Below are positions 25,138 to 47,012 of a DNA stretch of 64,000 nucleotides, one piece after another (position 1 is the first letter of the stretch; every line of letters starts with the position of its first letter). The notes below the pieces were generated by a model. The model had not been told where the DNA came from. It searched no databases and saw only the letters and a program-made list of their open reading frames with translations. A program made the translations under genes and the position numbers. This stretch comes from a virus, in the IMG/VR virus record IMGVR_UViG_3300042888_001972, positions 1 to 64,000 of that record; one strand, written 5' to 3'.

Positions 25138-28100
25138 TTAAATATTCTCGAACGAAGCTCCTGTTGGAGTAATAAAGAATTCAATATCAATAAATTCTAA
25201 CGCTTTCGTCGGTTTCAAGTAAATTTTACCTGTTAATGTATTTCTATCTAAATCCTCAGGAGATGATGAAACTGTTACACGGAAATCGTATAAACCTCGG
25301 TCTCTTCTGATTGAATCTAATATAGGGTTAACACTATCTAAGAATTGTTGTCTAACAACTTGGTCGTTTTGTTCAAACAATAATCTTACCGCTACTGCTG
25401 ATATTAACTTACGAGCTTGAAGTAATAATCTTCTTACATTCAATCTGTTAAGTGCTGTGTCAGCAACTTGTAATGTTTTATTACCCCAAATAACCGTACC
25501 AACATCTGAGAAAGTTGCGATAGGGTTAATTCTACCTTGGTATAATGTATCTCTATCTTCTTGAGTCAATTTAACTCTTGCTTTAACTGAGTTTACAAGA
25601 CCTCTTGTGTAACCCGCTGATGCGAACCATGGGAAAGCAATGTTGTCTGTTAATGCTAAGTTTCTACAAACTTCACCTGTTGCAGGTAAATAAATTTGTG
25701 TATTATTAACAGTATCTCTTGTTAAAATCCAAGGATAGTAAGTTGCAGTATAATTAGAGTCAATTCCAGTATTATCTAAGTTATCAACCGCCTCTTGAGA
25801 ATAGATAACATCTTGTGGATTTGTTGAATCCGGTGTGTACATTCTATAATCAGGAGTTGTTGTAATATAAACAGAATCCGCTCTTTGGAATTGAACCATA
25901 TCAATTGTTTCTTCAACTAAGTTTGAGTTATTAACATAATCAATACTTGCTGTTGCTAATACATTAATATTAGTAGCTTCAGGATTCGCAAATGTTAATA
26001 TACCAAGTAAGTAAGCGTAATAGTCAGTGTTTGCAAAATCTTGAGTATTATTTTCAACTACAATACGTTTGAATAAACCTTCACCTGTTGCATTTGGATA
26101 TCTTGTTGATACCGATGCTCCTGCTAAAAATCCTGATTGACCTAATTGGAATCTATCTTCATTTGTACGATATTCTCTATAAATGTCCCATCCATCAAAT
26201 CCACCAGCAAAACATAAAGTATATTTTCTTGAGTAAATGAAATAGTATGGATTTTCTTGAGTTTCAGGGTCTGTTCTAAACTCAGCTACACCACATTCAA
26301 AAGCAGTTTGACCACTTGTGTCATAACTATTTGAAATTGTTACAACTGTCGCTCCGGAGTCCATGTGAAAACCTTTACTTACATAATTCCAAGCAGCGCC
26401 TTCAACAGGTGTTATTGAGTTCACCCAAGACGCTGGATTTTGTCTTCCTTTATATGATAAGAATGATTCGTCAATACCATATTGTGTTGAGAAACCTAAA
26501 TAAGTTCTTCTAACAATATCACCAGGTGATTCAACTAAATTTGAACTACCTGTTGGGGTTCCAAATGGAGGGTTAGCGATTGTCTCACCAGGGAAAAAAT
26601 ATTTTGTTTTAAATACAGGGTATGGTGATGGGTTAGTCACTGATTCATATTCTCTTTGAGTATAACCTTCAAAACCACATGGTATTGCATCAATTGGTGC
26701 CTCATCAGCCAACTCAATCATTACATATTTTGATAATAATGCGTATTCACCATTAGTTGAACCTAATTTTTTAGCAACGAAGTTATTAGAATTAGGGTCC
26801 ATATTACAATTAGTAAATTTCTCAATAACAATAGGGTTTGAATCCGTGTCAAAGAAATTTCTAACTAAAACATCAAATGTCATATTGTTAAATGATAAAT
26901 TTGCGATAGACACTTTAACTTCAGTGTTTGCAGTACCCCCATCAGAGATTGAAACAAATTTAAATAATTTATAAACTTTATTACCTCTTAATTCTGACAC
27001 CAAATAAGGTGTACTAGGTGATTGATATCTTTCAACACTATAAGCAATTGAATTTGATTGTTCACTTCTAGCTTCAGGTAATGCAACTAATTGAGGGTTA
27101 ATACCTTTAATATAACCTTGATTGAAAGCATATGCCAATGAACTTGGATAAATTTCTTCAACAAATAAAGGAACCTCATTTCTTGATTTTCCAAAATTAT
27201 CAACACCTAACACTTTTGTAATAAACTTAGATGAAGTTGCCGATAAATTAGTTTCGAACGTAAAAATGTCTCCATCTTTTGTTACACCTGATAAACCAAA
27301 TGATGCAAAAGGATTTTTATCCGTATCCACATATTGTTCGTTTGTTAATAACGTAACATTATTTTCATTATTTACTTCATATATTTGTCCATGATTATCA
27401 CTTGTCGAACTATTAGTATATAATGAAATACCTCTTGAACGAAGTGTTGCTACAACCATATTGTTAAATTCAGTATAAGCAGTACCAATAAATGTATAGT
27501 AATCACCCGAAATTGTTCCTGAGAAAGTTTGTGAGTCACCTGTTCCTGTAACTGATAAAGCACTTATATTATAATCAAATGAGTATCCTGTATAAGCATT
27601 ACCTGTATAATTATTAAAGTTAGCATAAAACCATGAGTCATTTTCAGATGCCGATAAATCGTTAGTTGCTAAGTTATTCGTATCTGAACCAAATTCATTT
27701 ACAACTGTTGTGTAATTATTCGTAATATTATAATAATCTGTTTCAGGAATTGCTCCATAAATAAATGCTGTTGTAGCAGTTAAAGTATTATTATCAACTG
27801 CATTATAAATATTTGCAGTAAAATCAGTGTCAAATGTAGATACGCTACCATCAGATAATCTATATTGTGTGTTTAAGTTAGTCTGAACCGCAGATGGGAA
27901 TGAACCACTAATAAAATTAACGGTACCCGCACTCGTTGCACCTGTAAAAGATACAGACCAAGCAGTTGCTCCGGTTGGACTTTGTGTAATTGTTGTTGGG
28001 TCAACATTTGCAGTAACTCTAATACTCCAAGATGGACCAGCATCATATCCTGACAATCCTAAGATTCTTGTCACGAACAACTGATTCGATTGTTGTAAGT

Positions 28101-28359
28101 AAGATTTAGCTATGTATGCCGCCTCATATTTAGGGATTTGTGTGTTAACAAATTTAGTTGGTTCTGTTCCTCCGAAAAAGGCTTGGAACTCATCGTAGTT
28201 TGTTATGAATACCGGTTCAAATGCAGGACCTCTTAAAGTCTCACCAACTAAACCTAGGGTAGTAACACCCACACTTTGTGCTACGAATGATAAGTCAGTT
28301 TCAGAAGTGTATACCCCCGGTGAAACGAAAACTTTTTGATTTGCTTGTGCTGTTGCCAT
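25138..28359 (-). CDS. Tail sheath protein, gp18-like, enlarged
   Basis: Forms the contractile sheath around the tail tube. The N-terminus (VFVSPGVYTSETDLSF, residues about 10-25, then VGETLRGPAFEP) and C-terminal domain (RRLLLQARKLISAVAVRLLF to LKPTKALEFIDIEFFITP, about 945-1065) are the conserved parts that interlock neighbouring subunits. At 1073 residues it is over 400 longer than T4 gp18 (659). The extra sequence is a Thr/Ser/Asn/Tyr-rich beta-type region between about 120 and 870, probably surface-exposed decoration domains. It has its own late motif upstream and a strong terminator downstream. Confidence 0.92.
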   Translation of the reverse strand: MATAQANQKVFVSPGVYTSETDLSFVAQSVGVTTLGLVGETLRGPAFEPVFITNYDEFQAFFGGTEPTKFVNTQIPKYEAAYIAKSYLQQSNQLFVTRILGLSGYDAGPSWSIRVTANVDPTTITQSPTGATAWSVSFTGATSAGTVNFISGSFPSAVQTNLNTQYRLSDGSVSTFDTDFTANIYNAVDNNTLTATTAFIYGAIPETDYYNITNNYTTVVNEFGSDTNNLATNDLSASENDSWFYANFNNYTGNAYTGYSFDYNISALSVTGTGDSQTFSGTISGDYYTFIGTAYTEFNNMVVATLRSRGISLYTNSSTSDNHGQIYEVNNENNVTLLTNEQYVDTDKNPFASFGLSGVTKDGDIFTFETNLSATSSKFITKVLGVDNFGKSRNEVPLFVEEIYPSSLAYAFNQGYIKGINPQLVALPEARSEQSNSIAYSVERYQSPSTPYLVSELRGNKVYKLFKFVSISDGGTANTEVKVSIANLSFNNMTFDVLVRNFFDTDSNPIVIEKFTNCNMDPNSNNFVAKKLGSTNGEYALLSKYVMIELADEAPIDAIPCGFEGYTQREYESVTNPSPYPVFKTKYFFPGETIANPPFGTPTGSSNLVESPGDIVRRTYLGFSTQYGIDESFLSYKGRQNPASWVNSITPVEGAAWNYVSKGFHMDSGATVVTISNSYDTSGQTAFECGVAEFRTDPETQENPYYFIYSRKYTLCFAGGFDGWDIYREYRTNEDRFQLGQSGFLAGASVSTRYPNATGEGLFKRIVVENNTQDFANTDYYAYLLGILTFANPEATNINVLATASIDYVNNSNLVEETIDMVQFQRADSVYITTTPDYRMYTPDSTNPQDVIYSQEAVDNLDNTGIDSNYTATYYPWILTRDTVNNTQIYLPATGEVCRNLALTDNIAFPWFASAGYTRGLVNSVKARVKLTQEDRDTLYQGRINPIATFSDVGTVIWGNKTLQVADTALNRLNVRRLLLQARKLISAVAVRLLFEQNDQVVRQQFLDSVNPILDSIRRDRGLYDFRVTVSSSPEDLDRNTLTGKIYLKPTKALEFIDIEFFITPTGASFENI

Positions 28360-29676: not shown

Positions 29677-30213
29677 TTATTTCTTAACTACAAATAATTT
29701 ATTTTGTGAATTTATCATATCAACTTCAGTTGCACTATAAATTGGTTCTCCACTTGATTTATAAACAAATGAATCATACTTGTATGGATTATAGGTAACA
29801 ATCATATCTGATGATGGTGTTGGTATGTCATCACAAGGGTATTCACAAAAATCCATTAAATCCCCAATAACAAACGCATGGACATTTTTTGATTTTTCCG
29901 AACGAACTCTGTCTTTCCCACCTTTTCTAACTCTAAACTCAACATCCCCTAATTTAACATAATCCGCATGCATTATGACTTTAGATTTATATGTTACCGA
30001 AAAAGTATGTTTGTGAAGGTTATAATAAACCATAACTCTTTTTCCAATATGACTTTCTTCTGAGTTATCGTGTCCACATTTATGACAAATATAAGGGTCG
30101 TCACCACCATCAGCTAAATCCCATGACCAACCACACTCGTCACAAATTACTTTATCTTTTGTGACAATTTCAAATATTCTTCTTAATTGAGATTCTTTAA
30201 CTAATACTTTCAT
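29677..30213 (-). CDS. Zinc-ribbon protein of unknown function
   Basis: A 178-residue protein with a CPXCG-type zinc ribbon. C24 and C27 (ICDECGWSW) and C43 and C46 (YICHKCGHDN) are separated by an acidic Gly loop. The N-terminus MKVLVKESQLRRIFE resembles the leader on the two paralogues just upstream (EYIITESKL). The rest is beta-rich and basic, followed by a mixed C-terminal half (MDFCEYPCDDIPTP). One nucleotide separates its stop from the start of the downstream gene region, so it is translated with its neighbours. It may bind DNA or RNA through the ribbon; I cannot give a specific job. Confidence 0.6.
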   Translation of the reverse strand: MKVLVKESQLRRIFEIVTKDKVICDECGWSWDLADGGDDPYICHKCGHDNSEESHIGKRVMVYYNLHKHTFSVTYKSKVIMHADYVKLGDVEFRVRKGGKDRVRSEKSKNVHAFVIGDLMDFCEYPCDDIPTPSSDMIVTYNPYKYDSFVYKSSGEPIYSATEVDMINSQNKLFVVKK

Positions 30214-30215
30214 TA

Positions 30216-30617
30216 TTAATAATGTGTTGATACCGATTTAACCGGTAATTTAAAATTATCTTGAACCCATTTTTTCATAGGTTCAACCCAATGGTCATCA
30301 AACATAGTGTCTAAATGTTCACCATATTTGCCCATAACTTCTAAAATAGGTGCTTGTTTTCTAAACGATTTAGTTGATGGATTATTTTCATAATAATCCA
30401 CATCAAAATAATAAAAAACTATGTCAGTATCATCTTCCCCATTCCATTCTCCTTTAAAGAACATTAAAAAGTTTTCATCATCCTTATCTATATCCTCATA
30501 ACCATCTTCGTCAGAACCAGTCCCATAGACCCAATCCATTTCACTTGGGTTTAGATAACTATCAATGTACTGATAGATGGCATTAAATAATTTACTCTCT
30601 GTTATTATGTATTCCAT
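30216..30617 (-). CDS. Acidic protein, paralogue A of a tandem pair
   Basis: A 133-residue acidic protein of unknown function, about a third of whose residues are D, E, Y or W. It shares its first 18 residues almost exactly with the next gene upstream (YIITESKLFNAIYQYID). It also shares later blocks: a PS.(K/R)SF motif, APIL/TPIL, LDTMF/LETMF, MKKWVQDNF/FKKWFENKF and LPVK. The pair is a tandem duplication. High acidity suggests DNA mimicry or interaction with a basic partner, which is an inference. Its ATG overlaps the stop of the upstream paralogue by one base. It lies in the late operon with neck proteins. Confidence 0.6.
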   Translation of the reverse strand: MEYIITESKLFNAIYQYIDSYLNPSEMDWVYGTGSDEDGYEDIDKDDENFLMFFKGEWNGEDDTDIVFYYFDVDYYENNPSTKSFRKQAPILEVMGKYGEHLDTMFDDHWVEPMKKWVQDNFKLPVKSVSTHY

Positions 30618-31006
30618 TAATCAGCTACAATTGTTTTAACGGGTAATTCAAATTTATTTTCAAACCATTTTTTAAAAGGTCCTTTCCAATATTCACCAAA
30701 CATTGTTTCTAACGTTCCATAATCATTAACAATTAAAATTGGTGTTTGATTTATAAAAGATTGTCTTGAAGGTTCATCTGAATAATATTCCTTTACAATA
30801 TAAATAAATAACATCCCATTTTCATCATAATCACCATCATATTCAGTCTTAAAAAACTCCGTAATATATGGATTTTCTTTGTCATCATGTTCATCATCAT
30901 TCCAAGTTGTTGGATTAAAATAATCAATTTTATCCACATCATATGACCCATCAATATACTGATAGATTGCGTTAAATAATTTACTCTCTGTTATTATGTA
31001 TTCCAC
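30617..31006 (-). CDS. Acidic protein, paralogue B of a tandem pair
   Basis: The upstream copy of the tandem acidic pair. An ATG at 31033 would add nine residues (MKTNLEEYN), but the paralogue begins exactly at the equivalent of the GTG at 31006. That GTG is one base past the stop of the preceding gene (TAATG overlap region), so I favour GTG and a 129-residue protein. The 5' ends of the two genes are nearly identical at DNA level (about 47 of 49 bases, 30567-30617 versus 30957-31006), far more than the rest. This points to recent duplication or gene conversion of the leader region. Function unknown. Confidence 0.58.
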   Translation of the reverse strand: MEYIITESKLFNAIYQYIDGSYDVDKIDYFNPTTWNDDEHDDKENPYITEFFKTEYDGDYDENGMLFIYIVKEYYSDEPSRQSFINQTPILIVNDYGTLETMFGEYWKGPFKKWFENKFELPVKTIVAD

Positions 31007-31007
31007 A

Positions 31008-31520
31008 TTATATTCCTCTAAATTCGTTTTCACTTACATAAGTGGCAACAACACTTCTATAAAATGGTTTATATCCACCATACGTGTGTTTATTATCTGA
31101 CCTAACATATCCATCATCACTTACTACATAATATCTAACTCGGTCTTCAGTTTCATAATACCCAAGATAATCTCCTTGGAATATCTCAACACCCAATTCA
31201 TCAAGAGTTTTCTGATACAATGAGAATTTCATATTACCCGGTTCTTGTAATTCAACTCGAGAATTACCATAATTTTTAGATGTTGGAGCCATTACCTGAA
31301 CCAAACCTTGTAATTCAACAGGGGCCATGAATTGGATACCATCTTCCGTAACCTCACCATAAACATCATCTGTTTTGGTTTTATATCTATCGATACGATA
31401 TAGGATTACCGTGAAGTTCATATCACCCAATAACCACTCCTCACCCATACCGATGTCTAAAGCGTAATCCTCCGCTCCGAAGAATTTACCTAATCTTGTA
31501 ATTGGAACTAATTTTTGCAT
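31008..31520 (-). CDS. Probable neck/head-completion protein, gp14-like
   Basis: A 170-residue protein heading the neck/tail-completion operon. The segment DVYGEVTEDGIQFMAPVELQG followed by GNMKFSLYQKTLDELGVEIFQGDYLGYY fits the general pattern of T4-like gp14 neck proteins: a YGE motif, then a beta domain describing an interface loop. Length is below T4 gp14 (256). The N-terminus (RLGKFFGAEDYALDIGMG) has no signal peptide. A late motif lies 5 nt before its ATG, back-to-back with the early promoter of the SNF2 helicase gene. Structural assignment is moderate; gp14 equivalence is tentative. Confidence 0.5.
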   Translation of the reverse strand: MQKLVPITRLGKFFGAEDYALDIGMGEEWLLGDMNFTVILYRIDRYKTKTDDVYGEVTEDGIQFMAPVELQGLVQVMAPTSKNYGNSRVELQEPGNMKFSLYQKTLDELGVEIFQGDYLGYYETEDRVRYYVVSDDGYVRSDNKHTYGGYKPFYRSVVATYVSENEFRGI

Positions 31521-31575: not shown

Positions 31576-33327
31576 ATGGATGTAAGTCTCGAGTCAAAAG
31601 CATTGTCCCTATTGGAAACCTATGAAGGTGGTAATAACTACCTGATTGAGTTAAAACGAAAGTCTCAATTAAATAGAAAATTTTATCCCACAAGGAGTCA
31701 ATCAGAATACATTATTAACAATCATGATAAACAACCCAAAGTCGCTAAGAAATGGGTTATTCTTGATGCCTACTTTGCACAAAAACTTGCAGATGATAAA
31801 CTATACACCGAAATACCACAAAAAGTTTGGGTAGAAAAACTATTATCTGATAAAGAAAAGGCATTTCATATTTGGGGTAAAGTATTCGAAAACGAGGAAT
31901 TATATCACTTTTGGTTACCTAAAGCCGCCATCATTAAAGATAATACCGTTAAGGATGTTGTTATTGATTATTCAAAATATTCTAATCGTCCCCCTCTTGA
32001 ACACCAAAAAGAAGCTATCCAAAAATTAGTTGAGAATAAAAAGTTTATCCTTGCCGATGATATGGGTCTTGGTAAAACCACTTCAACGATTATTGCCGCA
32101 TTAGAGACCGGAGCAAAGAAAATTTTAATTATTTGTCCGGCGACTCTTAAAATTAACTGGAAACGAGAGATTGAAAATTATTCTGACCGACCAATTTTTA
32201 TTTCAGAAGGAAAACAATTTAGTACAGAAGATGACTTTGTTATTGTCAACTACGACATTATAAAGAATTTTCACGACCCAAAAAAGAAAGACGATTCTCT
32301 CATTTTAATGTCAAAATTTGATTTGATTATTATTGATGAAGCACATTATATTAAAAACGCTCAAGCTCAACGAACAAAACTTATCAACGATATAACCAAG
32401 AGTGTTGATAGATTATGGTTGTTAACCGGTACACCGATGACTTCCCGTCCAATAGATTATTTTAACTTACTTAGTTTAATTGATTCACCTGTTGCCAAGA
32501 ATTGGATGGCGTATGTTATTCGTTATTGTGCCGGTTTTCAATTTAAAGTTGGTCCAAGAAAAATTTGGAATGTCCAAGGAGCATCAAACCTTGAAGAATT
32601 ACGAGATAGAACAGTTGGTCTAACATTAAGAAGATTAAAAGAGAATGTTTTAGATTTACCTGATAAAATTATTACACCTGTTTATTTGAGATTAAAATCA
32701 AAAATGTATGAGGAAGTAATGGGTGATTATTATAATTGGTATGAAAAAAACCCTGAAGAATCAAAATCACTAACAGTACAATTCACCAAACTAACTAAAA
32801 TTAGACAAATTATTGCAGATGAGAAAATTTCTCAAACAATTGAAATTGCTGAAAATATTATTGAACAAGATAAAAAAGTAATCATCTTTTGTAATTTTAC
32901 CGATTCATTAAATAAAATTACTGAACACTTTGGAAAGGCATCGGTTAAACTTGATGGGTCAATGTCCAAAGTTGAGAGACAGTTTAGTGTTGACCAATTT
33001 CAAGAGAATGATAAAATAAAAGTATTTGTTGGGAATATTAAAGCAGCCGGTGTCGGAATTACTTTAACTTCCGCAGAGGCAGTAATCTTTAATGACTTAT
33101 CATTCTTACCATCTGACCACGCACAAGCAGAAGACCGAGCATATAGATATGGTCAAAAAAATAATGTATTAGTTTATTACCCAATTTTTGAAAATACAAT
33201 CGAGGGAATCATTTACGATATACTCCACAATAAGAAACAAGTTATTGCAACCGTTATGGGTGATAATCAAAATACTGCCGACGCAGCTCAAGAAATTTTA
33301 AAGAGAATTAATGAAATGCGTCGTTAA
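31576..33327 (+). CDS. SNF2-family DNA helicase/translocase
   Basis: ATP-dependent DNA translocase of the SWI2/SNF2 type, likely filling the role of T4 UvsW in recombination and stalled-fork repair. It has 583 residues. Motif I is LADDMGLGKTTS (159-170), motif Ia CPATLKINW, motif II IIDEAHYIKN (252-261), motif III LLTGTPMTS (282-290). Motifs V/VI include GVGITL and QAEDRAYRYGQ near the C-terminus. The N-terminal 130 residues form an accessory domain with an HARP-like flavour (SMARCAL1 relatives anneal DNA), which I could not confirm. It has an early promoter and is the first gene of the plus-strand block, divergent from the neck operon. Confidence 0.9.
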   Translation: MDVSLESKALSLLETYEGGNNYLIELKRKSQLNRKFYPTRSQSEYIINNHDKQPKVAKKWVILDAYFAQKLADDKLYTEIPQKVWVEKLLSDKEKAFHIWGKVFENEELYHFWLPKAAIIKDNTVKDVVIDYSKYSNRPPLEHQKEAIQKLVENKKFILADDMGLGKTTSTIIAALETGAKKILIICPATLKINWKREIENYSDRPIFISEGKQFSTEDDFVIVNYDIIKNFHDPKKKDDSLILMSKFDLIIIDEAHYIKNAQAQRTKLINDITKSVDRLWLLTGTPMTSRPIDYFNLLSLIDSPVAKNWMAYVIRYCAGFQFKVGPRKIWNVQGASNLEELRDRTVGLTLRRLKENVLDLPDKIITPVYLRLKSKMYEEVMGDYYNWYEKNPEESKSLTVQFTKLTKIRQIIADEKISQTIEIAENIIEQDKKVIIFCNFTDSLNKITEHFGKASVKLDGSMSKVERQFSVDQFQENDKIKVFVGNIKAAGVGITLTSAEAVIFNDLSFLPSDHAQAEDRAYRYGQKNNVLVYYPIFENTIEGIIYDILHNKKQVIATVMGDNQNTADAAQEILKRINEMRR

Positions 33328-33340
33328 AACAATTTTTGAT

Positions 33341-33348
33341 TATTTATA
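33341..33348 (+). promoter_or_regulatory. Late-promoter motif before the SOD-fusion gene
   Basis: TATTTATA on the plus strand, 21 nt before the ATG at 33370. It implies late expression independent of the upstream early helicase gene. Confidence 0.55.
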
Positions 33349-33369: not shown

Positions 33370-34902
33370 ATGAAAAAAATAGAACAAAAAATTCAACAGT
33401 TAGAAACAACAATCCTTGAAAGTCACGTACTTAAGGAAAAAAATCTGTTGATTACAGAAATGAAGAAAATAGGAATTGAAAAATTACCTTACTCTTATTC
33501 AGCCTTGAAACAATTCATCGACCCCGAAACGATGGAATTTCACTACAACAAACATTATAAGGGATACGTGGATAAATTAAATGATGCTCTCTCAAAGAAA
33601 AAATACGGGGATTTAGAATTAGAACAAATCATAAAAACAATTAGTCGATTTGATAAAACAATTCGTAATAATGCCGGTGGGGCTTTTAACCACGCATTAT
33701 TTTGGAATATGTTGTCACCAACACCCACAAAACTTAAAGGAGAACTTTTAAATAAAATTACCAAACAATATGGTAGTTTTCCTAACTTTAAAAAAGAATT
33801 TGAAAAAATTGCAAAAGAACGATTTGGTTCGGGTTGGGTATGGTTAGTTTTAACATCAAGAAATACTTTAAAAATTATGTCTACTCCAAATCAAGATAAT
33901 CCACTAATGAATGTTATCGAAGGTGGTGGATTCCCGTTGTTAGGATTAGATTTATGGGAACACGCTTACTATCTAAAGTATAGGAATAAAAGAGATGAGT
34001 ACATCTCAAACTTTTGGAAAGTTGTAAATTGGGATTTTGTTTCTAAATTATATGAAATGAAAACTGAAACAAAACTTTTAGAGTCCACAAAAATAAAACT
34101 AATATTGAGTGAGGGTAAATCAGAAATGTGTTCATCAGATGAAAACGAATTTTATAGAAAGTTATTTAACACTAACGAAGATGTTAAATGGATTTACATG
34201 AAAGGTATCGATAAAATCATGAGAGAAGTTTTTTCTGAGAATTATGTTGAAAATCCTCCTAATAACCAAATGTCAGGTGTTTATGATTTAGAAGGAACAG
34301 GGAGGTCAATAATTAATAAATTAAATACAAATTATACAACATTCTGTATTTTATTAAATGATTTAAATCAAGTTATTAATAAATTAACAAAAAACGCACC
34401 AATTAATTTTAAAAATAAAAACACAGAAGAACAAAAGAAAGAAGCTTTAAGATTTATTTCCGCAATTAACCATTATAAATTTAAAATATTTAATCGAGAG
34501 AGTTCAACATTTCAAAACTTGTTAAAGGTCTTAATTGAAAAAGATGCCGCGGGTTCAAAACGTGAAGAAATAACAGCTTCAATATTGAGAAGATATTTTG
34601 GTAAAGGAGTTAAAGTTGAAATTGTCGGTGAACTTGGAAGTAAAAAAGACGCGATTAGTGGAATTGATTTAGAAATAACCAAAGATGGTGTGACCAAAAC
34701 CGCTCAAGTTAAACCCTTCCGAGAGAAAAAAATGACAGATGATGGTATTTTACTCGAAGGGACTGCAAGTGTAAAGATTTATAAAACCGATTTAATGGTT
34801 TTTCAAAAAGGGAAAAATGTTTTAGTTTTTGATAAAAAACCAATAATAGTTAATGGTAATTTCCTTTTTCCATTGGACTCATTATTATATGATATACAAT
34901 AA
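33370..34902 (+). CDS. Fe/Mn superoxide dismutase fused to a PD-(D/E)XK nuclease-like domain
   Basis: A 510-residue fusion. Residues 38-230 form a complete Fe/Mn-SOD with all metal ligands: H58 (METMEFHYNKH region), H108 (NHALFW), D194 and H198 (GLDLWEHAYY). The family signatures NNAGG, ERFGSGWVWLV and NFWKVVNW are also present. Residues 400-510 contain GELGSKKDAISGIDLEI then TAQVKPF. This resembles a PD-(D/E)XK nuclease core (E400, D433, Q446, K448), with Q replacing the usual D/E. The middle (240-395) is helical. The first 35 residues before the SOD carry ILE and ITE motifs. Late expression and neck-gene neighbours suggest a virion-associated enzyme. Both domain calls come from motif reading; the SOD is near-certain, the nuclease moderate. 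Confidence 0.82.
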   Translation: MKKIEQKIQQLETTILESHVLKEKNLLITEMKKIGIEKLPYSYSALKQFIDPETMEFHYNKHYKGYVDKLNDALSKKKYGDLELEQIIKTISRFDKTIRNNAGGAFNHALFWNMLSPTPTKLKGELLNKITKQYGSFPNFKKEFEKIAKERFGSGWVWLVLTSRNTLKIMSTPNQDNPLMNVIEGGGFPLLGLDLWEHAYYLKYRNKRDEYISNFWKVVNWDFVSKLYEMKTETKLLESTKIKLILSEGKSEMCSSDENEFYRKLFNTNEDVKWIYMKGIDKIMREVFSENYVENPPNNQMSGVYDLEGTGRSIINKLNTNYTTFCILLNDLNQVINKLTKNAPINFKNKNTEEQKKEALRFISAINHYKFKIFNRESSTFQNLLKVLIEKDAAGSKREEITASILRRYFGKGVKVEIVGELGSKKDAISGIDLEITKDGVTKTAQVKPFREKKMTDDGILLEGTASVKIYKTDLMVFQKGKNVLVFDKKPIIVNGNFLFPLDSLLYDIQ

Positions 34903-34925: not shown

Positions 34926-36053
34926 ATGGCAGTTATACCGGAACCAGAAAGAAGTAAAATTTATACAAGAGTCAAACATCAATTAGGTGCTCCACTTAGA
35001 AGTGTTGAACTTGAAGATGAAATGATGGACTCATTAATGGAATTATCTATTGGAGACTACGAAGAATACGTTCTTCAGTGGTTAATAGATAGTCAATGGG
35101 TTAATTTAGTTAACCTAAACATGAATGAGAAATCAGTTGCAAAAGCATTGATTACTCGAACAATGGATTTTGAACAACAATTTAGTTATTCATATTCAAA
35201 AATTGTAGGTCTTCAAACAGAAGGTCCATGGGTTTTGAAGAAAGATTATTTTATCTTAAGTGCAAATACTCAAACATACGAAATCCCTGCAGGTCGTGAG
35301 GTTAATGAATTATTATGGTTTAGTGATAGACCATGGAATGCATTTGGATTAGGTGCCACTGCCGGTGGATTTGGTGCTGGTATAGGTCTTGGAGCTAATG
35401 AGGCGGGATTCGCACAAATGGGAAATCAAGGTTCTTACTTTATGATGTCAGGTTTTGATTATCTTGTGAGAATGCAAGAGGCAAATGTCTTGAGTAGAAT
35501 TTTAGGAGGTTCACTTACCTATAGAATTACCGGATTACCTGATGGTAAGAAAAATATTCATTTATACAATACACCGGGAGGAAGATTTAATTGGAATAAT
35601 ATTAACGGTTATGTGGGTAAAGCGGTGTGGTATTGGTATTATGATGTATCACCTGATAATAGAGCGGATTGTTTAAAAAATAATCCCGATGTAATTAAAT
35701 TACCTTCGGATGTTCCAATGGATAATTTATCTTGGGAAGATTTAAACATACCAGGTCAACAATGGGTTAGAAGATGGTTTACCGCGTATTGTAAAGAAAC
35801 GTTAGCAAGAGTTAGAGGAAAATATAGTGGTAATCTTAAAACACCTGATAGTGAATTAACTATGGACTATACATCCTTATTAACTGAATCAAAAGATGAA
35901 AAAACTAAATTAATTGAAGAATTAACAGGTGCTGAAGGATGGTTAACAAGATTAAGACCAGAAAAAGTGATGGAACGAGAGGCATTAATTGCGGAAAACT
36001 TAAACAAACAAATGAAATTTAGAGCAATGCCTCGACAAATATACGTAATATAA
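34926..36053 (+). CDS. Neck protein, gp13-like
   Basis: A 375-residue structural protein. The C-terminal part QWVRRWFTAYCKETLARVRGK, followed by a Ser-Gly-x-Leu segment and ELTMDY.SLL, matches the conserved end of T4-like gp13 neck/head-completion proteins (YALALAKE.LG.IRGKFS.. type). Gp13 seals the portal after DNA packaging and joins head to tail. It is longer than T4 gp13 (309); a Gly-rich insertion (ATAGGFGAGIGLGANEAG, about 140-160) accounts for part of the difference. One nucleotide separates it from the next gene. A late motif sits 3 nt before the start. Confidence 0.62.
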   Translation: MAVIPEPERSKIYTRVKHQLGAPLRSVELEDEMMDSLMELSIGDYEEYVLQWLIDSQWVNLVNLNMNEKSVAKALITRTMDFEQQFSYSYSKIVGLQTEGPWVLKKDYFILSANTQTYEIPAGREVNELLWFSDRPWNAFGLGATAGGFGAGIGLGANEAGFAQMGNQGSYFMMSGFDYLVRMQEANVLSRILGGSLTYRITGLPDGKKNIHLYNTPGGRFNWNNINGYVGKAVWYWYYDVSPDNRADCLKNNPDVIKLPSDVPMDNLSWEDLNIPGQQWVRRWFTAYCKETLARVRGKYSGNLKTPDSELTMDYTSLLTESKDEKTKLIEELTGAEGWLTRLRPEKVMEREALIAENLNKQMKFRAMPRQIYVI

Positions 36054-36054
36054 C

Positions 36055-36390
36055 ATGGCAATAATTAAATCAATACCATCAAGAAAAATAATAAACGGAT
36101 TAATAATTGATTCTTCAGAAATTTCTGTAGTATCAGAATTGGATTATAAAACCAATGGTGAAAGTTGTATTATTGTTAGAGGAGTATCTCAATCAGTAAT
36201 CACTTTAAACTCAATAACAACTGACCATGTTGTTATAAAATCAATGACTAAAGTCACAATTAAACCTGATGTCGGAAAAATAGATGAAGATTATGATGAA
36301 TTAGTTGCCGACCAATATGCATGTATCGAATTTAGATTTGTTGGTGGTAATTGGTATATTCTATCATCCGATGGTTTAAAACAATCATAA
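36055..36390 (+). CDS. Small structural protein, unknown
   Basis: A 111-residue, beta-rich protein starting one base after the gp13-like stop. The segment ACIEFRFVGGNWYILSSDGLK resembles the end of small phage decoration/fibre-base domains where a W-containing strand follows a hydrophilic turn. No cysteine motif, membrane segment or enzyme signature is seen. Co-transcription with a neck gene and placement before a bidirectional terminator suggest a minor virion component. I do not recognise a named family. Confidence 0.55.
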   Translation: MAIIKSIPSRKIINGLIIDSSEISVVSELDYKTNGESCIIVRGVSQSVITLNSITTDHVVIKSMTKVTIKPDVGKIDEDYDELVADQYACIEFRFVGGNWYILSSDGLKQS

Positions 36391-40670: not shown

Positions 40671-42350
40671 TTATGACTCTTTACGTAACTCTCCTTCGTA
40701 ATGTTCGAATCTATCGTGTTCAGTTGGGGTTAAAAGTAATAAACCCGATGACAATTCACCCTTTTTAGTTAATTGATACATATGACTCATCCATGTTTGT
40801 TCGAATGGATGTGCCCATGTTGTGTCCAAAAACATTTTTTTATTTCCCGGTCTACTAACAATTTGAGGCCAATTACAATAATAAACTTCACCGGAACCAT
40901 ACGGTAAACCTTTGTGAGATAAAATTGATGAAAATTTAGTTTTTGGTGCGTTAGGGTCTAACCCAAGATGAGGTAATGACGATTTTTCAGGCCAAAACTC
41001 TTCTCTAACTGATTGAGGTACGTTATACCAAGACCATTGGGTACCATTATCACCATAAAACTCAGAATAATTAAGTTTTAAAAAATCAAAATTTTCTTTT
41101 TTAATTATCTCTAATGATTTGGTATACAAATTTGGGACATATCTATTAAAACCATTTCGACAAACAGAACCTTCGTTAGGAAAGAAAAACATATCATCTT
41201 CAAAAAATAAATAATAATCTAAATCTGTCGTTTCAAAATGTTCGGCAATCCATTGTCTACCTCCACAAATCCCAAGATTTTCTTTTTTTATGTGTTCAAA
41301 TCCGTGTTCTTCACATAATTTCAAGTACTCCTCTGTTGTTGATAAATCCGTTGAATTATCCAACAAATATTTCTTAGTCTTTAATAAATAATCATTATCA
41401 TAAACTTCAAATGATTTAATCAACGTTTTAAATTGATTTGGGCTATTAAAAGTCAAAACATAAAGACCAACTTTATTGGTGTCTAAATTGTTTCCAACAA
41501 TTACCTTTGATTCGTTTTTTGGAACTAAATCATCGTTTTTTAAATCTTCAAAAAATTTACCAACTAACCCATTAGATTCAATTTCAAAGTAGTTAATTAA
41601 ATCAGAATGTTTGTAAGACATTATACTAAAGATTGATTCTTCAGTACCCATATAACCTTCACTAAGAGTAGATTTTAGTAAACCATAGTAAATTCCATTA
41701 ATATCTGTAATAGTACTTTTAGGTCCCCCAAAAAATCCACCTCGAGAAACTTTAGTAACCTTATTACCGGCAATTGAATTTAATTTATTATACTCAAAAC
41801 CATGTATTTCACTCTCAGCTCCATAAGGAAAACTAATAAATGAAAATTTTGAAACATACTTTGATAATTTATCAAAAACTTTATCGTGAGTAAAATAACC
41901 CGGATGAACTGTATTAGTTAATCCACCATCTATCCAAAACATATATTCCGAATCAAACTTATCAAATATTTTTGCATCATGTAAAAGAAAAACTTTTGAC
42001 ATAACTAATGGGTTATAATTCTCAAGTTTTGCCTGTGTCGATTGCTCTAACCACCCAACTTGACTATACCAATTAGGGTTATTCCTAATATTTTGAATCA
42101 AAGGAAAGAACTCTGAATCGGTAAACCAATTTAATGGTCTTTCAATAAATTGAGTATTTGATTCATCCCTTTTTGTAAAAACAAAATCTTTAAGTTCTTT
42201 ATCCCCAAAAATAATCATATTTTCTTGAACATCTAAAAGTTGTTCAAATTTATCTAAATAATGTTGGTACGACCTTGACCATCCTTCAGTTAGGTCACTT
42301 CTACCAATATCCCATATTCCTGTTACTAACGTTATATTACTCATTTTCAA
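40671..42350 (-). CDS. Two-domain glycosyltransferase (HtrL/YibB-like + GT-A)
   Basis: A 559-residue fusion. The N-terminal half (1-270) resembles HtrL/YibB/WlaTC-type proteins: ITLVTGIWDIGR, PLVMSKVFLLHDA, YMFWIDGGLTNTVHP and GGFFGGPKSTI. The C-terminal half (about 285-559) looks like a GT-A transferase with DYYLFFEDDMFFF (near residue 382) as the metal/nucleotide-sugar site and HPFEQTWMSHMY near the end. It is the last gene of a six-gene minus-strand glycosyltransferase cluster and overlaps its neighbour by 14 nt. The acceptor is unknown; host surface glycans or the Thr/Pro-rich phage fibres are candidates. Confidence 0.75.
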   Translation of the reverse strand: MKMSNITLVTGIWDIGRSDLTEGWSRSYQHYLDKFEQLLDVQENMIIFGDKELKDFVFTKRDESNTQFIERPLNWFTDSEFFPLIQNIRNNPNWYSQVGWLEQSTQAKLENYNPLVMSKVFLLHDAKIFDKFDSEYMFWIDGGLTNTVHPGYFTHDKVFDKLSKYVSKFSFISFPYGAESEIHGFEYNKLNSIAGNKVTKVSRGGFFGGPKSTITDINGIYYGLLKSTLSEGYMGTEESIFSIMSYKHSDLINYFEIESNGLVGKFFEDLKNDDLVPKNESKVIVGNNLDTNKVGLYVLTFNSPNQFKTLIKSFEVYDNDYLLKTKKYLLDNSTDLSTTEEYLKLCEEHGFEHIKKENLGICGGRQWIAEHFETTDLDYYLFFEDDMFFFPNEGSVCRNGFNRYVPNLYTKSLEIIKKENFDFLKLNYSEFYGDNGTQWSWYNVPQSVREEFWPEKSSLPHLGLDPNAPKTKFSSILSHKGLPYGSGEVYYCNWPQIVSRPGNKKMFLDTTWAHPFEQTWMSHMYQLTKKGELSSGLLLLTPTEHDRFEHYEGELRKES

Positions 42351-43200
42351 TGTTATTTAATTTTTCAAAAATTCTATAAAAATATATCTCATTATCAAAG
42401 TTATATTGTGCCATATCACTATCTTCATGGTGCCATGTAGTGAATATTAATTTATTAAAGTTATTTTTATTTCTTTGATATATTATTGTATATAAGGCTT
42501 CTTCCATGTCTAACGCATCATAATCAATCATTTCTTTTAAAACATCGTCATACATTAAACAAAAATCATTAATAAGTTCTTTTTTACCACCAAACATACC
42601 TCCGACAATATGACAATTATCAACAATGTCTATGTTATGATAAAATTTTTGGTTAGCTCTTCGTTCTAATAAGTGTTTTGATTGGTCCCCATATAACACC
42701 GTAACCTTATCTTCAACCTTATTCAAGTTCTCAACCATTGTAGGGTTGAATAATGTACATGAGAAAAAGTCGTGGAAATTATCACCACTTCGATATTTTC
42801 TTGGAAATAAACCTCCATGTGATAAACCACAATCAATCCAATAATAAAAATCATAATCCTCTGTAAGATGATTTTTAATCCATGAAGTTTTACTATGCAT
42901 TATTTCATGACATCTATCACTTTTATTTCCATTCAACATTTTTTGAAAATATTCGTGGTTTGGATGTGAAAATAAATCATAAATAATAAACCTAACGTTT
43001 GATTTATATTCGGTAAAATCAATATGTTTTTCAAGATATTCTTTATCTTCTTGAGATGTGTAAATTACAAAATCTGATTCTAAATTCAGTAGTGTTCTTA
43101 ATGAATTTACATAATGATGAATTCTACCAACACGGCCACCTAAAATTGTGTTGTCTAACCCGTTATAAAAACAAGTTATAAATAATGTTTTGTTTTCCAT
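42337..43200 (-). CDS. Glycosyltransferase-like protein, HtrL/YibB family
   Basis: A 287-residue protein related to the N-terminal half of the next gene: TLFITCFYNGLDN, DFYYWIDCGLSHGGLFP (near residue 118), HIVGGMFGGKKELI and EEALYTIIYQR. This set is characteristic of HtrL/YibB-type proteins, found in surface polysaccharide loci and thought to be glycosyltransferases. It overlaps the 559-residue gene by 14 nt, so translation is coupled. No signal peptide or membrane segment, so it would act in the cytoplasm. Confidence 0.68.
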   Translation of the reverse strand: MENKTLFITCFYNGLDNTILGGRVGRIHHYVNSLRTLLNLESDFVIYTSQEDKEYLEKHIDFTEYKSNVRFIIYDLFSHPNHEYFQKMLNGNKSDRCHEIMHSKTSWIKNHLTEDYDFYYWIDCGLSHGGLFPRKYRSGDNFHDFFSCTLFNPTMVENLNKVEDKVTVLYGDQSKHLLERRANQKFYHNIDIVDNCHIVGGMFGGKKELINDFCLMYDDVLKEMIDYDALDMEEALYTIIYQRNKNNFNKLIFTTWHHEDSDMAQYNFDNEIYFYRIFEKLNNIENE

Positions 43201-43209
43201 TTTAATGTT

Positions 43210-43848
43210 TTAAAAAAATATATAATTTTGAGGTTTTCCGAAATTATTTTCGTCCCACCATCCACCAACAAAATATTCATTGGTTTTTTCAATTGGAAAG
43301 GTTTTCAAATATGTTGAACAGTGAATCAAATAACTGTCATTAAATAAAGGTACTAATTTTTCTCTTAAAAATTTTTGGTCTGAATCATAGTAATGACCTT
43401 CCCAATCTTTACTTAATTCATTCATTTTAACTCTATCATTTTTTTTAATCCCCCACATTCCACCCATAATATTATTATGGCTAGGATTATCTCTAATTGA
43501 ATGTAATAAGAATTCAGACTCCATAAAAATATCCACACAATGTTTTTCTCGATACGATAGTCTGGCGTCAGCATCTCTTGAAATCATAACTTCAACATCC
43601 TCATCGTCAATTGCTAAAAATCTCCACATCATCGGGAAGATATTTTCTTCACCTTCATCCATTAAGTATAATTCAACATTACTATAAGTTTTTAATTGTT
43701 CTATAATCTCCGATGAAACTGATTTACCATAATAAATCCTACATATCCAATCCGGAAAAATAACTTGGGCAATCTCAACATTACTTATCATTCCATAAGA
43801 ATATTTTTGTTGCCCACCATACAAAGAAAATGATATTATTTTTTTCAT
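43210..43848 (-). CDS. Glycosyltransferase-like protein with DxD motif
   Basis: A 212-residue protein with the pattern ISRDADARLSYREK followed by a helix and HSIRDNPSHNNIMGGMWGIK. I recognise this as a conserved core of small GT-A-like proteins found in Bacteroidota and large viruses. The RDADAR box gives a DxD metal site. Start MKKIISFSLYGGQQKY is the first strand of a Rossmann-like fold. Its ATG overlaps the stop of the upstream gene by one base. Cytoplasmic; acceptor unknown. Confidence 0.65.
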   Translation of the reverse strand: MKKIISFSLYGGQQKYSYGMISNVEIAQVIFPDWICRIYYGKSVSSEIIEQLKTYSNVELYLMDEGEENIFPMMWRFLAIDDEDVEVMISRDADARLSYREKHCVDIFMESEFLLHSIRDNPSHNNIMGGMWGIKKNDRVKMNELSKDWEGHYYDSDQKFLREKLVPLFNDSYLIHCSTYLKTFPIEKTNEYFVGGWWDENNFGKPQNYIFF

Positions 43849-44786
43849 TATGATAAATCCATAAAAGGCCCGTAATTTTGTACAAACGAATTGTTTTTAT
43901 ACGGGTTTACAACCCCAAATTTATTGTTTAGCACACCATAAACAATAAAATTACTAATCCAACTATAATTTGTAAATATGTTAATTTTTTCTGACATTGA
44001 AATTAAACAAAATTCAACTAAACAAAAGTTCCAATATTCTTCATCATTATAATCTCTTCTTGTCGTTTTTAAAATATCATCGTCATATAAAAAAACATTA
44101 TTAAAATGTTCTTTTATATATTGTTTAACTCTCATACTATTTGAACAAACAAAAACCATTTCATTACTATCACAAATATCTTTTATTTTGTTCATTGTAT
44201 TTTCATTTATTGAAAATGTCGATTTTAATGTTTTGTGTCTTACTTGAAACTCTTCATCTTGTATGTCAGGATGTAATATTCTAGAATTATATGCGTCTCC
44301 AATGTCATCCCACTCTCTAAAATGAATAACACTAAAATTATTTAAATCGTTATCTGTTCTAAATTTTTCTGTGTTTTTAATAATCTCTTTAGATAATTTT
44401 GGAAAATTACTTAAGTCTTGATAATTTAATAAACCAAAATGAGATAAATTAAAAAAATATTGATTATATTCATCATTGAATTCTTTAGGGACAAACATTT
44501 CCCAACAATGTACCCCTGCATTCCATTTCTCATGTGGGTATTTTATTTTATAATTTTCAAAATCATTTAAAGTTTTTCCATTTTCAACTAAAAATATTTG
44601 GTCAAAATATTCATAATATTTGGATTCAAATAAATTTAAAAAATCTATTTTCCTTTTGGAATTAAAGTACAAATGAACATCATGACCTAATTCTTTAAGT
44701 TGTTTAGATGAAAAATATATTTCACAAAAATAAGCATAAAAATCTCCAATACCCGAACTAAAATTTATTTGTATATTAATAGTCAT
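43848..44786 (-). CDS. Probable GT-B glycosyltransferase (fucosyltransferase-like)
   Basis: A 312-residue protein that starts with a GIGDFYAYFCEIYFSSKQL segment, a nucleotide-sugar-type first domain. It then has FSVIHFREWDDIGDAYNSR, resembling the HxRxGD-like motif I of O-fucosyl/alpha-fucosyltransferases, and ends with EKINIFTNYSWISNFIVYGV, like the motif that closes the active site in those families. Low GC even for this window (many AAT/TTT codons) suggests recent acquisition. One base separates it from the upstream gene. Family assignment is by pattern. Confidence 0.52.
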   Translation of the reverse strand: MTINIQINFSSGIGDFYAYFCEIYFSSKQLKELGHDVHLYFNSKRKIDFLNLFESKYYEYFDQIFLVENGKTLNDFENYKIKYPHEKWNAGVHCWEMFVPKEFNDEYNQYFFNLSHFGLLNYQDLSNFPKLSKEIIKNTEKFRTDNDLNNFSVIHFREWDDIGDAYNSRILHPDIQDEEFQVRHKTLKSTFSINENTMNKIKDICDSNEMVFVCSNSMRVKQYIKEHFNNVFLYDDDILKTTRRDYNDEEYWNFCLVEFCLISMSEKINIFTNYSWISNFIVYGVLNNKFGVVNPYKNNSFVQNYGPFMDLS

Positions 44787-44787
44787 T

Positions 44788-45738
44788 TTATAAATCTAAT
44801 AATTTTAATGTGTATTCAATACTACTTTCAGGTGATAAGTATTTTTCATAATACTCTCTAGCGTTTGTTGAAATAAAATTCAAAAATTCTTTATCGTCTT
44901 TTACTTCTAAAAATTTTTTTGTTATCATATCCGCATGATGTTGTAACCCATTTCTATCTAAGTTCATCCAATCTTTTAAGTCATCCGGTCTTTTAACTGA
45001 AATATAATGATAATTCGGAATCAATGGTTCGTGAAATTCACTTGTAAATTCAAATCTAATGAATGGAATACCCATTGCCATACATTCTATATCTCTATAA
45101 CAAATTTCAGCTCTACCTGCAACAGAAAATGCAACTTCAAAATTCAACATTTCGTTAGCGTAATTTTCAAACCCACCAATTGGTCCTCCACCATAAAAAA
45201 CATCAGGACTAAAATAATTAAGAATAGGTCTTGTTGATGTATCTCCTCTGAAATAAAATTTATCATTGGAGATGTCCATGGTTTTTCTTAAGTTATAATA
45301 ATAATCTAAATCATACTCATTTGACGGAAAATATATCCATGGAAAGTATTTGTATTGATTTTGGGGTGAAACATGATGATATACTTTTTCTCTAATAAAT
45401 TGAGAAATAAAAACTTTTTTTACATTATCATACGATTGTAAGTTTAAAGTTGCTGAGGTTAAATCATCAGCAACTCCAAACACATATGTTTCACCTGTGT
45501 CATAATCTTCAATAATCATTTCACATTCGTAGGTCAATACATCAACATCATTTTCATTATGTTGCCACCCCAGTCTAACTAATTTTTGTCCGAGATGAGC
45601 ATCTCTATAATATCTATCGGTCACGACATCATGTTTTTCCGACAATTTTTTAATAAAATTATCAAAGAATATATTGTAATACCTATATTTTTTACTTTGA
45701 TGGTTTGTTGGTTGATGAACTATTAATTTTCTACTCAT
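44788..45738 (-). CDS. Probable GT-B glycosyltransferase
   Basis: A 316-residue protein with a nucleotide-sugar-binding C-terminal domain: FSVAGRAEICYRDIECMAMG followed by IPFIRFEFTSEFHEPLI. It fits GT-B enzymes where a conserved acidic residue near AMGIP contacts the sugar nucleotide. The N-terminal half contains VFGVADDLTSATLN and a KKVFISQFIREKVY strand-helix typical of an acceptor domain. It is part of the six-gene cluster, 8 nt after the GT60-like gene and 1 nt before the next. Specificity unknown. Confidence 0.6.
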   Translation of the reverse strand: MSRKLIVHQPTNHQSKKYRYYNIFFDNFIKKLSEKHDVVTDRYYRDAHLGQKLVRLGWQHNENDVDVLTYECEMIIEDYDTGETYVFGVADDLTSATLNLQSYDNVKKVFISQFIREKVYHHVSPQNQYKYFPWIYFPSNEYDLDYYYNLRKTMDISNDKFYFRGDTSTRPILNYFSPDVFYGGGPIGGFENYANEMLNFEVAFSVAGRAEICYRDIECMAMGIPFIRFEFTSEFHEPLIPNYHYISVKRPDDLKDWMNLDRNGLQHHADMITKKFLEVKDDKEFLNFISTNAREYYEKYLSPESSIEYTLKLLDL

Positions 45739-45746
45739 TAATTTTA

Positions 45747-47012
45747 TTAACTAACTATATTATGGTGTAATCTGCCTGTTATTCTATCACACCATCCTTT
45801 AGATGTTGAAAACGGCCATACAACCCAATGTGATGGTAATTCGTCTGTTTGGAATTCTCTCCACACTTTACAATATTTGTCAGGGTCTCTCATAAAACCA
45901 GCAATTTCGTTTTTATCAGCATCTTTTCTAAATAAAGTCTCATCTTTATCATTATGGAATGCAACAACCCAAAACTCATAATCTTTTTCAGGTACTTGGT
46001 CATAACCAATATCAATACAATGTTTGAACATCATACAAAAACTATCTTTCCATTCTTGCTCTGTTTCAAAATTATATGGATTTGGTGGGTAGTTTTTATC
46101 TAAAGTGTATTTATCAATCGCTCTCTTTTCAAATAACAACCCTGAATACTTTTCGTAGTCTGTTAAGGTTCTAATTGGACCAAATCCAAATGGACCATCA
46201 TGTCCTTCTTGTTTTTCACCATCCATACCAAATAGTTTTCTATTTGTAAAATGAGAATGTTTGTTTTTCTCCCCCCACGTTTTGTCGTCATCCCATTGTT
46301 TGGTTCTACCTTTACGAGTATATTCATGATATACCACAGGAATTTGTGGATGGAACAAATCGTAACCCCAAGTATAAGCTCTTGCCGCGATTGAAATTTC
46401 TTCACCATGAAAATAATATTCAGGGTTGTGTTGGACTTCTAACGAGAAGGCACCCAATGTAAAACAAAAGTGTGCTGAATAGAATCTTGCCGTCACAGGT
46501 TTTTTCATTTCTCTCCATCCCGGGATTGTTTCAGGTAAAAAGAATACAGCACCTTCAGGGATGAATCTATCGAATACCATTCTCCATGCTTCATTCACTC
46601 TACCTGCTGGGTCATTTTCAGGGTCAAAAGATGGTACGTAACCTGTTAACAAAGGTTTCTCATATCCGTCTTTTTGAAGACCTTTAATCATCTTGATTAA
46701 AATATCGTCCCAATCTTTAACAAATCTCATATGAGAATCTATTTGAAGGGTATATGTCTCACCACCATAAAGTTGTTGAGTTAGATTTCTTGCCCAACAA
46801 ACACCTTTGGATTCTTCGTATGGAATATCCAAGATTTTAAATCTTTTATCTTTTCTATAGTCTTCTAATTTATCGAATCCATCGTCTTCACTAAATTGTC
46901 TTGCAATTCCAAAATGAATATTTTTAGGTTTCTTGGCGTTCTCCAACATATTTTTAATTGTTGGTTCTAATTGTGGGTCTCGGTAAGAGGCGATTTGAAC
47001 AAATATTTTCAT
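45747..47012 (-). CDS. GlcNAc-transferase-like glycosyltransferase (GT60-type)
   Basis: A 421-residue protein that I recognise as the GlcNAc-transferase family related to the Skp1 hydroxyproline GlcNAc-transferase (GT60). It has FVQIASYRDPQLEPTI at the start, CWARNLTQQLY, LQIDSHMRFV (near residue 89, DxH metal site) and YYFHGEEISIAARAYTWGYD (near 200). Family members transfer GlcNAc to hydroxyproline or Ser/Thr of proteins, which is striking beside Thr/Pro-repeat fibre genes. It heads the glycosyltransferase operon, just downstream of a terminator at 47040-47065, so it needs read-through or an unseen promoter. Confidence 0.78.
   Translation of the reverse strand: MKIFVQIASYRDPQLEPTIKNMLENAKKPKNIHFGIARQFSEDDGFDKLEDYRKDKRFKILDIPYEESKGVCWARNLTQQLYGGETYTLQIDSHMRFVKDWDDILIKMIKGLQKDGYEKPLLTGYVPSFDPENDPAGRVNEAWRMVFDRFIPEGAVFFLPETIPGWREMKKPVTARFYSAHFCFTLGAFSLEVQHNPEYYFHGEEISIAARAYTWGYDLFHPQIPVVYHEYTRKGRTKQWDDDKTWGEKNKHSHFTNRKLFGMDGEKQEGHDGPFGFGPIRTLTDYEKYSGLLFEKRAIDKYTLDKNYPPNPYNFETEQEWKDSFCMMFKHCIDIGYDQVPEKDYEFWVVAFHNDKDETLFRKDADKNEIAGFMRDPDKYCKVWREFQTDELPSHWVVWPFSTSKGWCDRITGRLHHNIVS

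Follow-up and report, generated by a model that had tools for sequence, protein, structure and literature searches.

A stretch of 64,000 nucleotides of viral DNA (positions 1 to 64,000 of IMG/VR record IMGVR_UViG_3300042888_001972; hereafter the window) carries a gene that joins a superoxide dismutase (SOD) of the Fe/Mn family to a module with a nuclease-like fold of the PD-(D/E)XK type, and the new observation reported here is that both domain junctions of its product match the sites cut by phage prohead proteases. We favour, with a confidence somewhat above even, the reading that the product is a late-made precursor that would be packaged into the capsid, cut by a prohead protease at E30 and E248, and delivered as an SOD and a nuclease. 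A wider formulation, in which the protein is a virion cargo polyprotein releasing a Mn-type SOD (MnSOD) and a PD-(D/E)XK-like nuclease for the start of infection, with the locus acting as an interchangeable cargo slot, is put forward more tentatively, at slightly less than an even chance. The computed evidence comprises two domains whose candidate catalytic sites are intact, their conservation and synteny, the way domains have been gained and lost, a promoter-like motif and the two junction motifs. The gene and its parts are placed as follows (a slash marks the candidate cut; pLDDT is the predicted local distance difference test).

33370..34902, + strand: SOD-nuclease fusion gene, 510 amino acids, ATG start, with full-length homologues in many viral contigs
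33370..33459, + strand: N-terminal leader (residues 1-30) ending LITE/M, a candidate capsid-targeting propeptide with prohead-protease site, from [IL]-x-E conservation and low pLDDT
33478..34047, + strand: Fe/Mn SOD domain (residues 37-226) with a Mn-type active site (H58, H108, D194, H198, Q175), from Pfam, PDB matches and conservation
34102..34113, + strand: ILSE/G junction of SOD and nuclease (residues 245-248), the second candidate site for the prohead protease, from E248 conservation and low pLDDT
34135..34503, + strand: helical domain of the C-terminal module (residues 256-378), including an NKLNTNY motif, from AlphaFold2 secondary structure; kept in stand-alone homologues
34504..34893, + strand: PD-(D/E)XK-like nuclease core (residues 379-508) with E399, D433, Q446 and K448, from Foldseek and residue invariance

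To judge from their sequence, residues 37-226 are a complete Mn-type Fe/Mn SOD, for which catalytic activity is predicted. Both Pfam domains that define the family score above cut-off in the 510-residue product (Sod_Fe_N, PF00081, residues 37-116, 1e-22; Sod_Fe_C, PF02777, residues 123-226, 2e-40), and PDB sequence matches of this part reach 1e-58, the best being MnSODs. An earlier reading of the window, made from its letters without database searches (the sequence-only reading), had described a complete Fe/Mn SOD and numbered the ligands H58, H108, D194 and H198 correctly; these and the second-shell residues H62, Y66, Q175, E197 and Y201 are unchanged in every diverse SOD-bearing homologue. 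In the SOD family, Gln at the position of Q175 and Gly-Gly before the second ligand are a mark of the Mn type, and the assignment to this type is made because the phage protein has Q175 within 'NQDNPLMN' and Gly-Gly ahead of its second ligand. Close pairs have ratios of nonsynonymous to synonymous substitution rates (dN/dS) of 0.02-0.08 in the SOD part and 0.04-0.07 in the nuclease core; the helical region that separates the two shows 0.06-0.20.

For the C-terminal part, the proposal of a nuclease fold following a helical region is borne out by structure prediction. The AlphaFold2 model (27 homologues) has a mean pLDDT of 90 and a predicted template modelling score (pTM) of 0.84, and the Foldseek search of the PDB places first the homing endonuclease I-Ssp6803I (PDB 2ost; probability 1.00, E 0.004), listed as a PD-(D/E)XK enzyme (PMC1995217), and next the archaeal Hjc resolvases (probability up to 0.98). 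The Foldseek E-values, 0.004-0.05, are modest because the match is limited to a core of ~110 residues. Residues 231-510 gave no sequence-family match above cut-off in searches of Pfam, PHROGs, NCBIfam, PADLOC and PDB sequences (hmmsearch for the last), and no sequence-family match to Hjc resolvases was found in Pfam or PDB sequences. Weak leads to DUF6602, MC4, EcoO109I and ShosA all fell below cut-off and were set aside. The GIDLEI...AQVK core pointed out earlier is real, and a helix-A glutamate can be added to it: E399 (helix A), D433 (at strand 2), and Q446 and K448 (strand 3) are present in 30/30 representative homologues at identities down to ~20-25%. The core fold, the conserved acidic residue of helix A, the Asp before strand 2 and the Lys of strand 3 are those of PD-(D/E)XK enzymes; where the comparison fails is the third motif, since the Asp or Glu two residues ahead of the motif-III lysine is replaced by Q446 in 30/30, giving Q-x-K and not (D/E)-x-K. 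Variants with Q-x-K occur in other PD-(D/E)XK members, e.g., Mrr-type enzymes. We therefore label the domain 'PD-(D/E)XK-like' and do not call it a canonical member; the model supports such a fold with invariant candidate catalytic residues, and nuclease activity is predicted.

The two junctions are not what an ordinary SOD would lead one to expect. A motif [IL]-x-E closes the otherwise variable N-terminal leader in 50/50 thinned phage SODs (P2 being variable) and in 0/70 bacterial SODs. The second junction, [IL]-[IL/M]-S-E before G, S, A or T, has E248 in 26/27 homologues having the region, with I, L or M at P3. In the full-length AlphaFold2 model, only residues 27-41 and 236-248 have pLDDT below 50, and these two segments coincide with the two junctions. 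In phage T4, the prohead protease gp21 cleaves N-terminal peptides off internal proteins and 65 residues off the capsid protein gp23 (PMC9958956), and processing of the 10-residue targeting sequence of the internal protein IPIII is governed by residues 8 and 10 (PMC9026906), that is, by P3 and P1. When relatives are included, a gene of the gp21 family (Peptidase_S77) is found in 5/7 records and a gp23-type capsid gene in 5/6. The capsid proteins of the relatives share an invariant LINE/A near residue 60, where the alignment would place the end of the capsid propeptide, and this LINE is of the same tetrapeptide type as the 'LITE', 'LINE', 'IISE' and 'ILSE' found at the SOD and nuclease junctions. 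Motifs of this kind show a 3.3-fold enrichment within the 35 N-terminal residues of the proteins of a 318-kb relative (p = 7e-13, indicative only, as the regular expression was picked after the junctions had been seen); in Bacteroidota loci the enrichment is 1.5-fold. Many proteins of this 318-kb relative (G002, L500-L515) begin with a short [IL]-x-E leader, e.g., MKLIESIRQIITE/A and MRLTNTLSTLITE/Q, and form, by their sequence, a candidate capsid-targeted set. In the window itself, three adjoining genes at 29677-31033 (- strand) have similar leader-like starts (MKVLVKESQLRRIFE; two of them with EYIITESKLFNAIYQYID) and are perhaps further head cargo and a tandem duplication.

The SOD-nuclease fusion is a conserved gene of many environmental phages, a family of large freshwater ones, and not a chimeric contig. 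Scans of viral contigs, in which up to 80 loci per scan were counted with much redundancy between scans, gave a set of 235 loci; both halves are present in 233 of them, the SOD-less ones being the jumbo-phage loci L159 and L160 only. The expectation of the sequence-only reading that the protein is rare in phages did not hold, as it is conserved in a large environmental phage group and a homologue with the same fusion and 50% identity over its full length was already deposited as 'superoxide dismutase' (UniProt A0A6J5L953; uncultured Caudovirales phage, 501 residues); the two differ in that the annotation there concerns the SOD only and the nuclease part is unannotated. No report of an SOD-nuclease fusion was found in the open-access literature.

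The locus is modular, occurring as SOD plus nuclease, SOD alone, HEWxH domain plus SOD, and nuclease alone. A census anchored on the downstream neck gene rather than on the fusion gene, and subject to the same redundancy and limit of 80 loci per scan, gave 42 loci with SOD and C-terminal part, 36 with SOD but without the C-terminal part, one with the C-terminal part but without SOD, and one with neither. In 19 of the SOD proteins without C-terminal part, an N-terminal HEW[x]H domain of ~120 residues precedes the SOD; in this sister clade (L432-L471, e.g., L434:3867-4949 and L446:3850-4929) HEW[SQVIAH]H is followed by NE[DN][DE]A[NS], with HEWxH in 19/19. The domain has no Pfam match; its motif suggests a zinc metalloprotease, and hence a putative metalloprotease-SOD fusion at the same locus.

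Nuclease-only forms were found at the same locus. In one of them, L351, the leader and first SOD residues ('NEMKKIEIEKL') are joined straight to the C-terminal part and the protein groups with the fusion L374 at full support, so that it is best read, at the level of sequence, as an in-frame loss of the SOD from a fusion. In seven SOD-less records (including those of 272, 308 and 318 kb) no SOD was found at another place, with the reservation that the records may not be complete. Stand-alone, strongly diverged C-terminal parts are encoded by two further jumbo phages, of 735 and 635 kb; single-sequence pattern searches with these two proteins found no relatives, and SOD-less forms were recovered with an alignment that had one of the two at its head. 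No C-terminal part was found in prokaryote genomes in a scan limited by short patterns. Among structures in BFVD, a 1113-residue protein of an uncultured marine phage (A0A8D9CCA0) contains the fold of the C-terminal part (TMq 0.80, 22% identity); the module thus occurs with other partners too. At L481:3877-4959, an SOD-less gene for the C-terminal part is followed by an open reading frame of 361 residues whose own motif (GQDFDVIID...YFQIK) resembles that of PD-(D/E)XK enzymes, making its product the second nuclease-like one at the locus.

In the mechanism that we propose, the leader of ~30 residues would take the precursor into the prohead core, where a prohead protease of the T4 gp21 type would cut after E30 (LLITE/M) and E248 (LILSE/G), so that the capsid would contain an MnSOD and, detached from it, a nuclease of the PD-(D/E)XK type. 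Both enzymes would enter the host along with the genome, the SOD to reduce superoxide in the early phase of infection and the nuclease to cut DNA of the host, of a competitor or of the phage itself in branched form. The leader with its junction motif, the second junction and the two segments of low pLDDT, all unexpected for an ordinary SOD, point in the same direction, towards packaging and cutting. The sequence-only reading had already considered packaging, which is plausible and now has additional, stronger support in the prohead-protease-type junctions; its single bifunctional enzyme fares less well, as the junctions favour a precursor that is cut apart. The roles it put forward, namely protection of incoming DNA, interference with a redox-triggered defence and action of the nuclease on host DNA or RNA, are hypotheses.

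Such a bifunctional enzyme would be made late and remain unpackaged and uncut, its SOD detoxifying superoxide in the infected cell while the tethered nuclease processes DNA and the SOD dimer aids dimerisation of the nuclease. The fusion does stay in one frame in most members, and SOD and PD-(D/E)XK domain types commonly act as dimers. However, the low-confidence joining segments carry invariant or near-invariant [IL]-x-E motifs, and SOD and nuclease are separable in evolution, and we consider this alternative unlikely, although it is the strongest of those weighed here.

Several points weigh against a packaged and cleaved precursor. The window's own 89-kb record, a fragment, contains neither a gp21-family protease nor a gp23 capsid gene, both of which come from relatives. 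The leader, at ~30 residues, is unlike the 10-residue capsid-targeting sequence (CTS) of T4 in sequence, and conservation runs past E30 into the SOD, so that E30 could be structural. One homologue, L324, is without E248, and in the sister clade the motif separates the SOD from the HEWxH domain that precedes it, and that N-terminal domain has no separate leader of its own. Gln replaces Asp or Glu in the third nuclease motif, and a nuclease packed together with the phage genome would require restraint or substrate selectivity.

The gene lies in a constant order across homologous loci, i.e., helicase, SOD-nuclease gene, neck gene, gene for a 111-residue protein, and polB, with these features in the window.

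31576..33327, + strand: SNF2-type helicase, conserved upstream neighbour (Pfam SNF2-rel_dom, phrog_62)
33341..33348, + strand: TATTTATA promoter-like motif upstream of the SOD-nuclease gene, from motif counts in window and homologues
34926..36053, + strand: neck or head-tail adaptor protein, conserved downstream neighbour (phrog_211, head-tail adaptor Ad2, 1.4e-8)
36055..36390, + strand: conserved 111-residue neighbour with no assigned function, from synteny

The late motif and neck-gene neighbourhood noted from the letters were both found again. The motif TATTTATA stands within 40 nt upstream of 8/45 window genes versus 0.9 expected, and the genes that have it include several of the tail and structural regions; TATTTAT occurs within 70 nt upstream of 25/30 representative homologous genes, typically at about -29. 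By this promoter-like motif, the SOD-nuclease gene is likely expressed together with the late and structural genes. The tail sheath protein (25138-28359, - strand) is unusually long, with 1073 residues and the sheath domain confined to its C-terminal quarter. Glycosyltransferase genes are found at 40671-47012 (- strand) and 60364-61575 (+ strand), one of which weakly matches the HMC glucosyltransferase family (5e-4); with such genes, the phage may carry modified DNA, a relevant point for any nuclease packaged with it.

The neighbourhood bears on a further explanation, in which the nuclease would be a Holliday-junction resolvase or DNA-debranching enzyme acting before packaging, as a substitute for T4 endonuclease VII, together with the neighbouring helicase and with the SOD as an accessory. 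The Foldseek matches to Hjc resolvases and the adjoining helicase speak for it, whereas the top fold match is a homing endonuclease, and the one related locus without SOD and C-terminal part and the 36 without C-terminal part indicate that the C-terminal part is not essential across the wider group. Searches with Endonuclease_7 and RuvC gave no match in four relatives, but the Endonuclease_7 search also missed every control, so that the negative for it carries no weight, and other resolvase families were not searched. We regard this role as improbable. Still less probable is a C-terminal part that has lost catalysis and serves as a PD-(D/E)XK scaffold for DNA binding or head assembly, with the SOD as sole enzyme: the Gln of the third motif and the lack of an above-cut-off sequence match to a known nuclease family would fit, but E399, D433, Q446 and K448 are unchanged over deep divergence and the core is under strong purifying selection. 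That it is a mobile homing-type endonuclease that landed beside the SOD gene, as its best PDB fold match (I-Ssp6803I) might suggest, can be practically dismissed, since its position is fixed between helicase and neck gene, it is inherited vertically in the whole clade, and it has its own conserved promoter-like motif.

Concerning origin, the nearest cellular SODs are mostly from Bacteroidota (46-57% identity). In a quick SOD tree, a branch with 100% support separates the bacterial sequences from the phage SODs of the locus, fused and unfused, the latter sharing their side with two distant jumbo-phage SODs. Judged by nesting in sequence trees that are not firmly rooted, the fused form is likely ancestral, the C-terminal part having been lost in the SOD-only clade. 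Since relatives reach 318 kb, the window represents part of a large T4-like phage, which probably infects Bacteroidota and may have its place close to the freshwater 'moraphages' (PMC12619734). The SODs of Pseudomonas and Vibrio jumbo phages are distant and unfused and were rejected as close kin. Several short 'phage' records (H1-H9) with SODs 43-51% identical were set aside, being probably bacterial contigs filed as phage. A related neck gene occurs in Mel-JY01 and in Flavobacterium phage immuto, with no SOD-nuclease gene beside it.

Comparison with known systems shows how the parts are combined. With bacterial Fe/Mn SODs of the SodA type, the phage enzyme shares the full domain, the four metal ligands, the Mn-type Gln (Q175) and ~50% identity; it differs in that a branch with full support sets phage SODs apart from the bacterial ones sampled, and in that phage SODs have a phage-only leader ending [IL]-x-E and are fused to other domains. 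With the PD-(D/E)XK nucleases (I-Ssp6803I, PDB 2ost; Hjc) the C-terminal part shares the core fold and the order helix-E, strand-D, strand-QxK, and differs by its Q-x-K third motif and the extra N-terminal helical domain (NKLNTNY). The T4 internal head proteins (IPI-III and Alt, whose CTS is cut by gp21) similarly have an N-terminal leader and a junction with I/L at P3 and E at P1, in the company of a gp21-family protease and a gp23 capsid protein, found here in relatives; differently from them, the leader is longer in the phage SOD-nuclease, two sites would yield two enzymes per precursor, and packaging is proposed from the motifs. A viral SOD that travels in the particle has a precedent in chlorovirus PBCV-1, whose Cu/Zn SOD (A245R) is encoded by a late gene and packaged in the virion, and whose infected cells accumulate less superoxide than those infected with a relative lacking the SOD gene (PMC7019647). 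Late synthesis and delivery in the particle, shown for PBCV-1, would be common to both viruses, whereas the PBCV-1 enzyme belongs to an unrelated SOD family and a eukaryotic virus and has no nuclease fusion.

If the favoured reading of a packaged and cleaved precursor is true, the phage would deliver an antioxidant enzyme and a nuclease along with its own DNA, and prohead proteases would produce several enzymes from one packaged precursor. The N-terminal leader ending [IL]-x-E would then be a sequence signature for further delivered proteins in large phages. It would become testable whether keeping superoxide in check during the first minutes of an infection matters for phages of aerobic freshwater Bacteroidota, with the lineages that lost the SOD in frame as natural controls.
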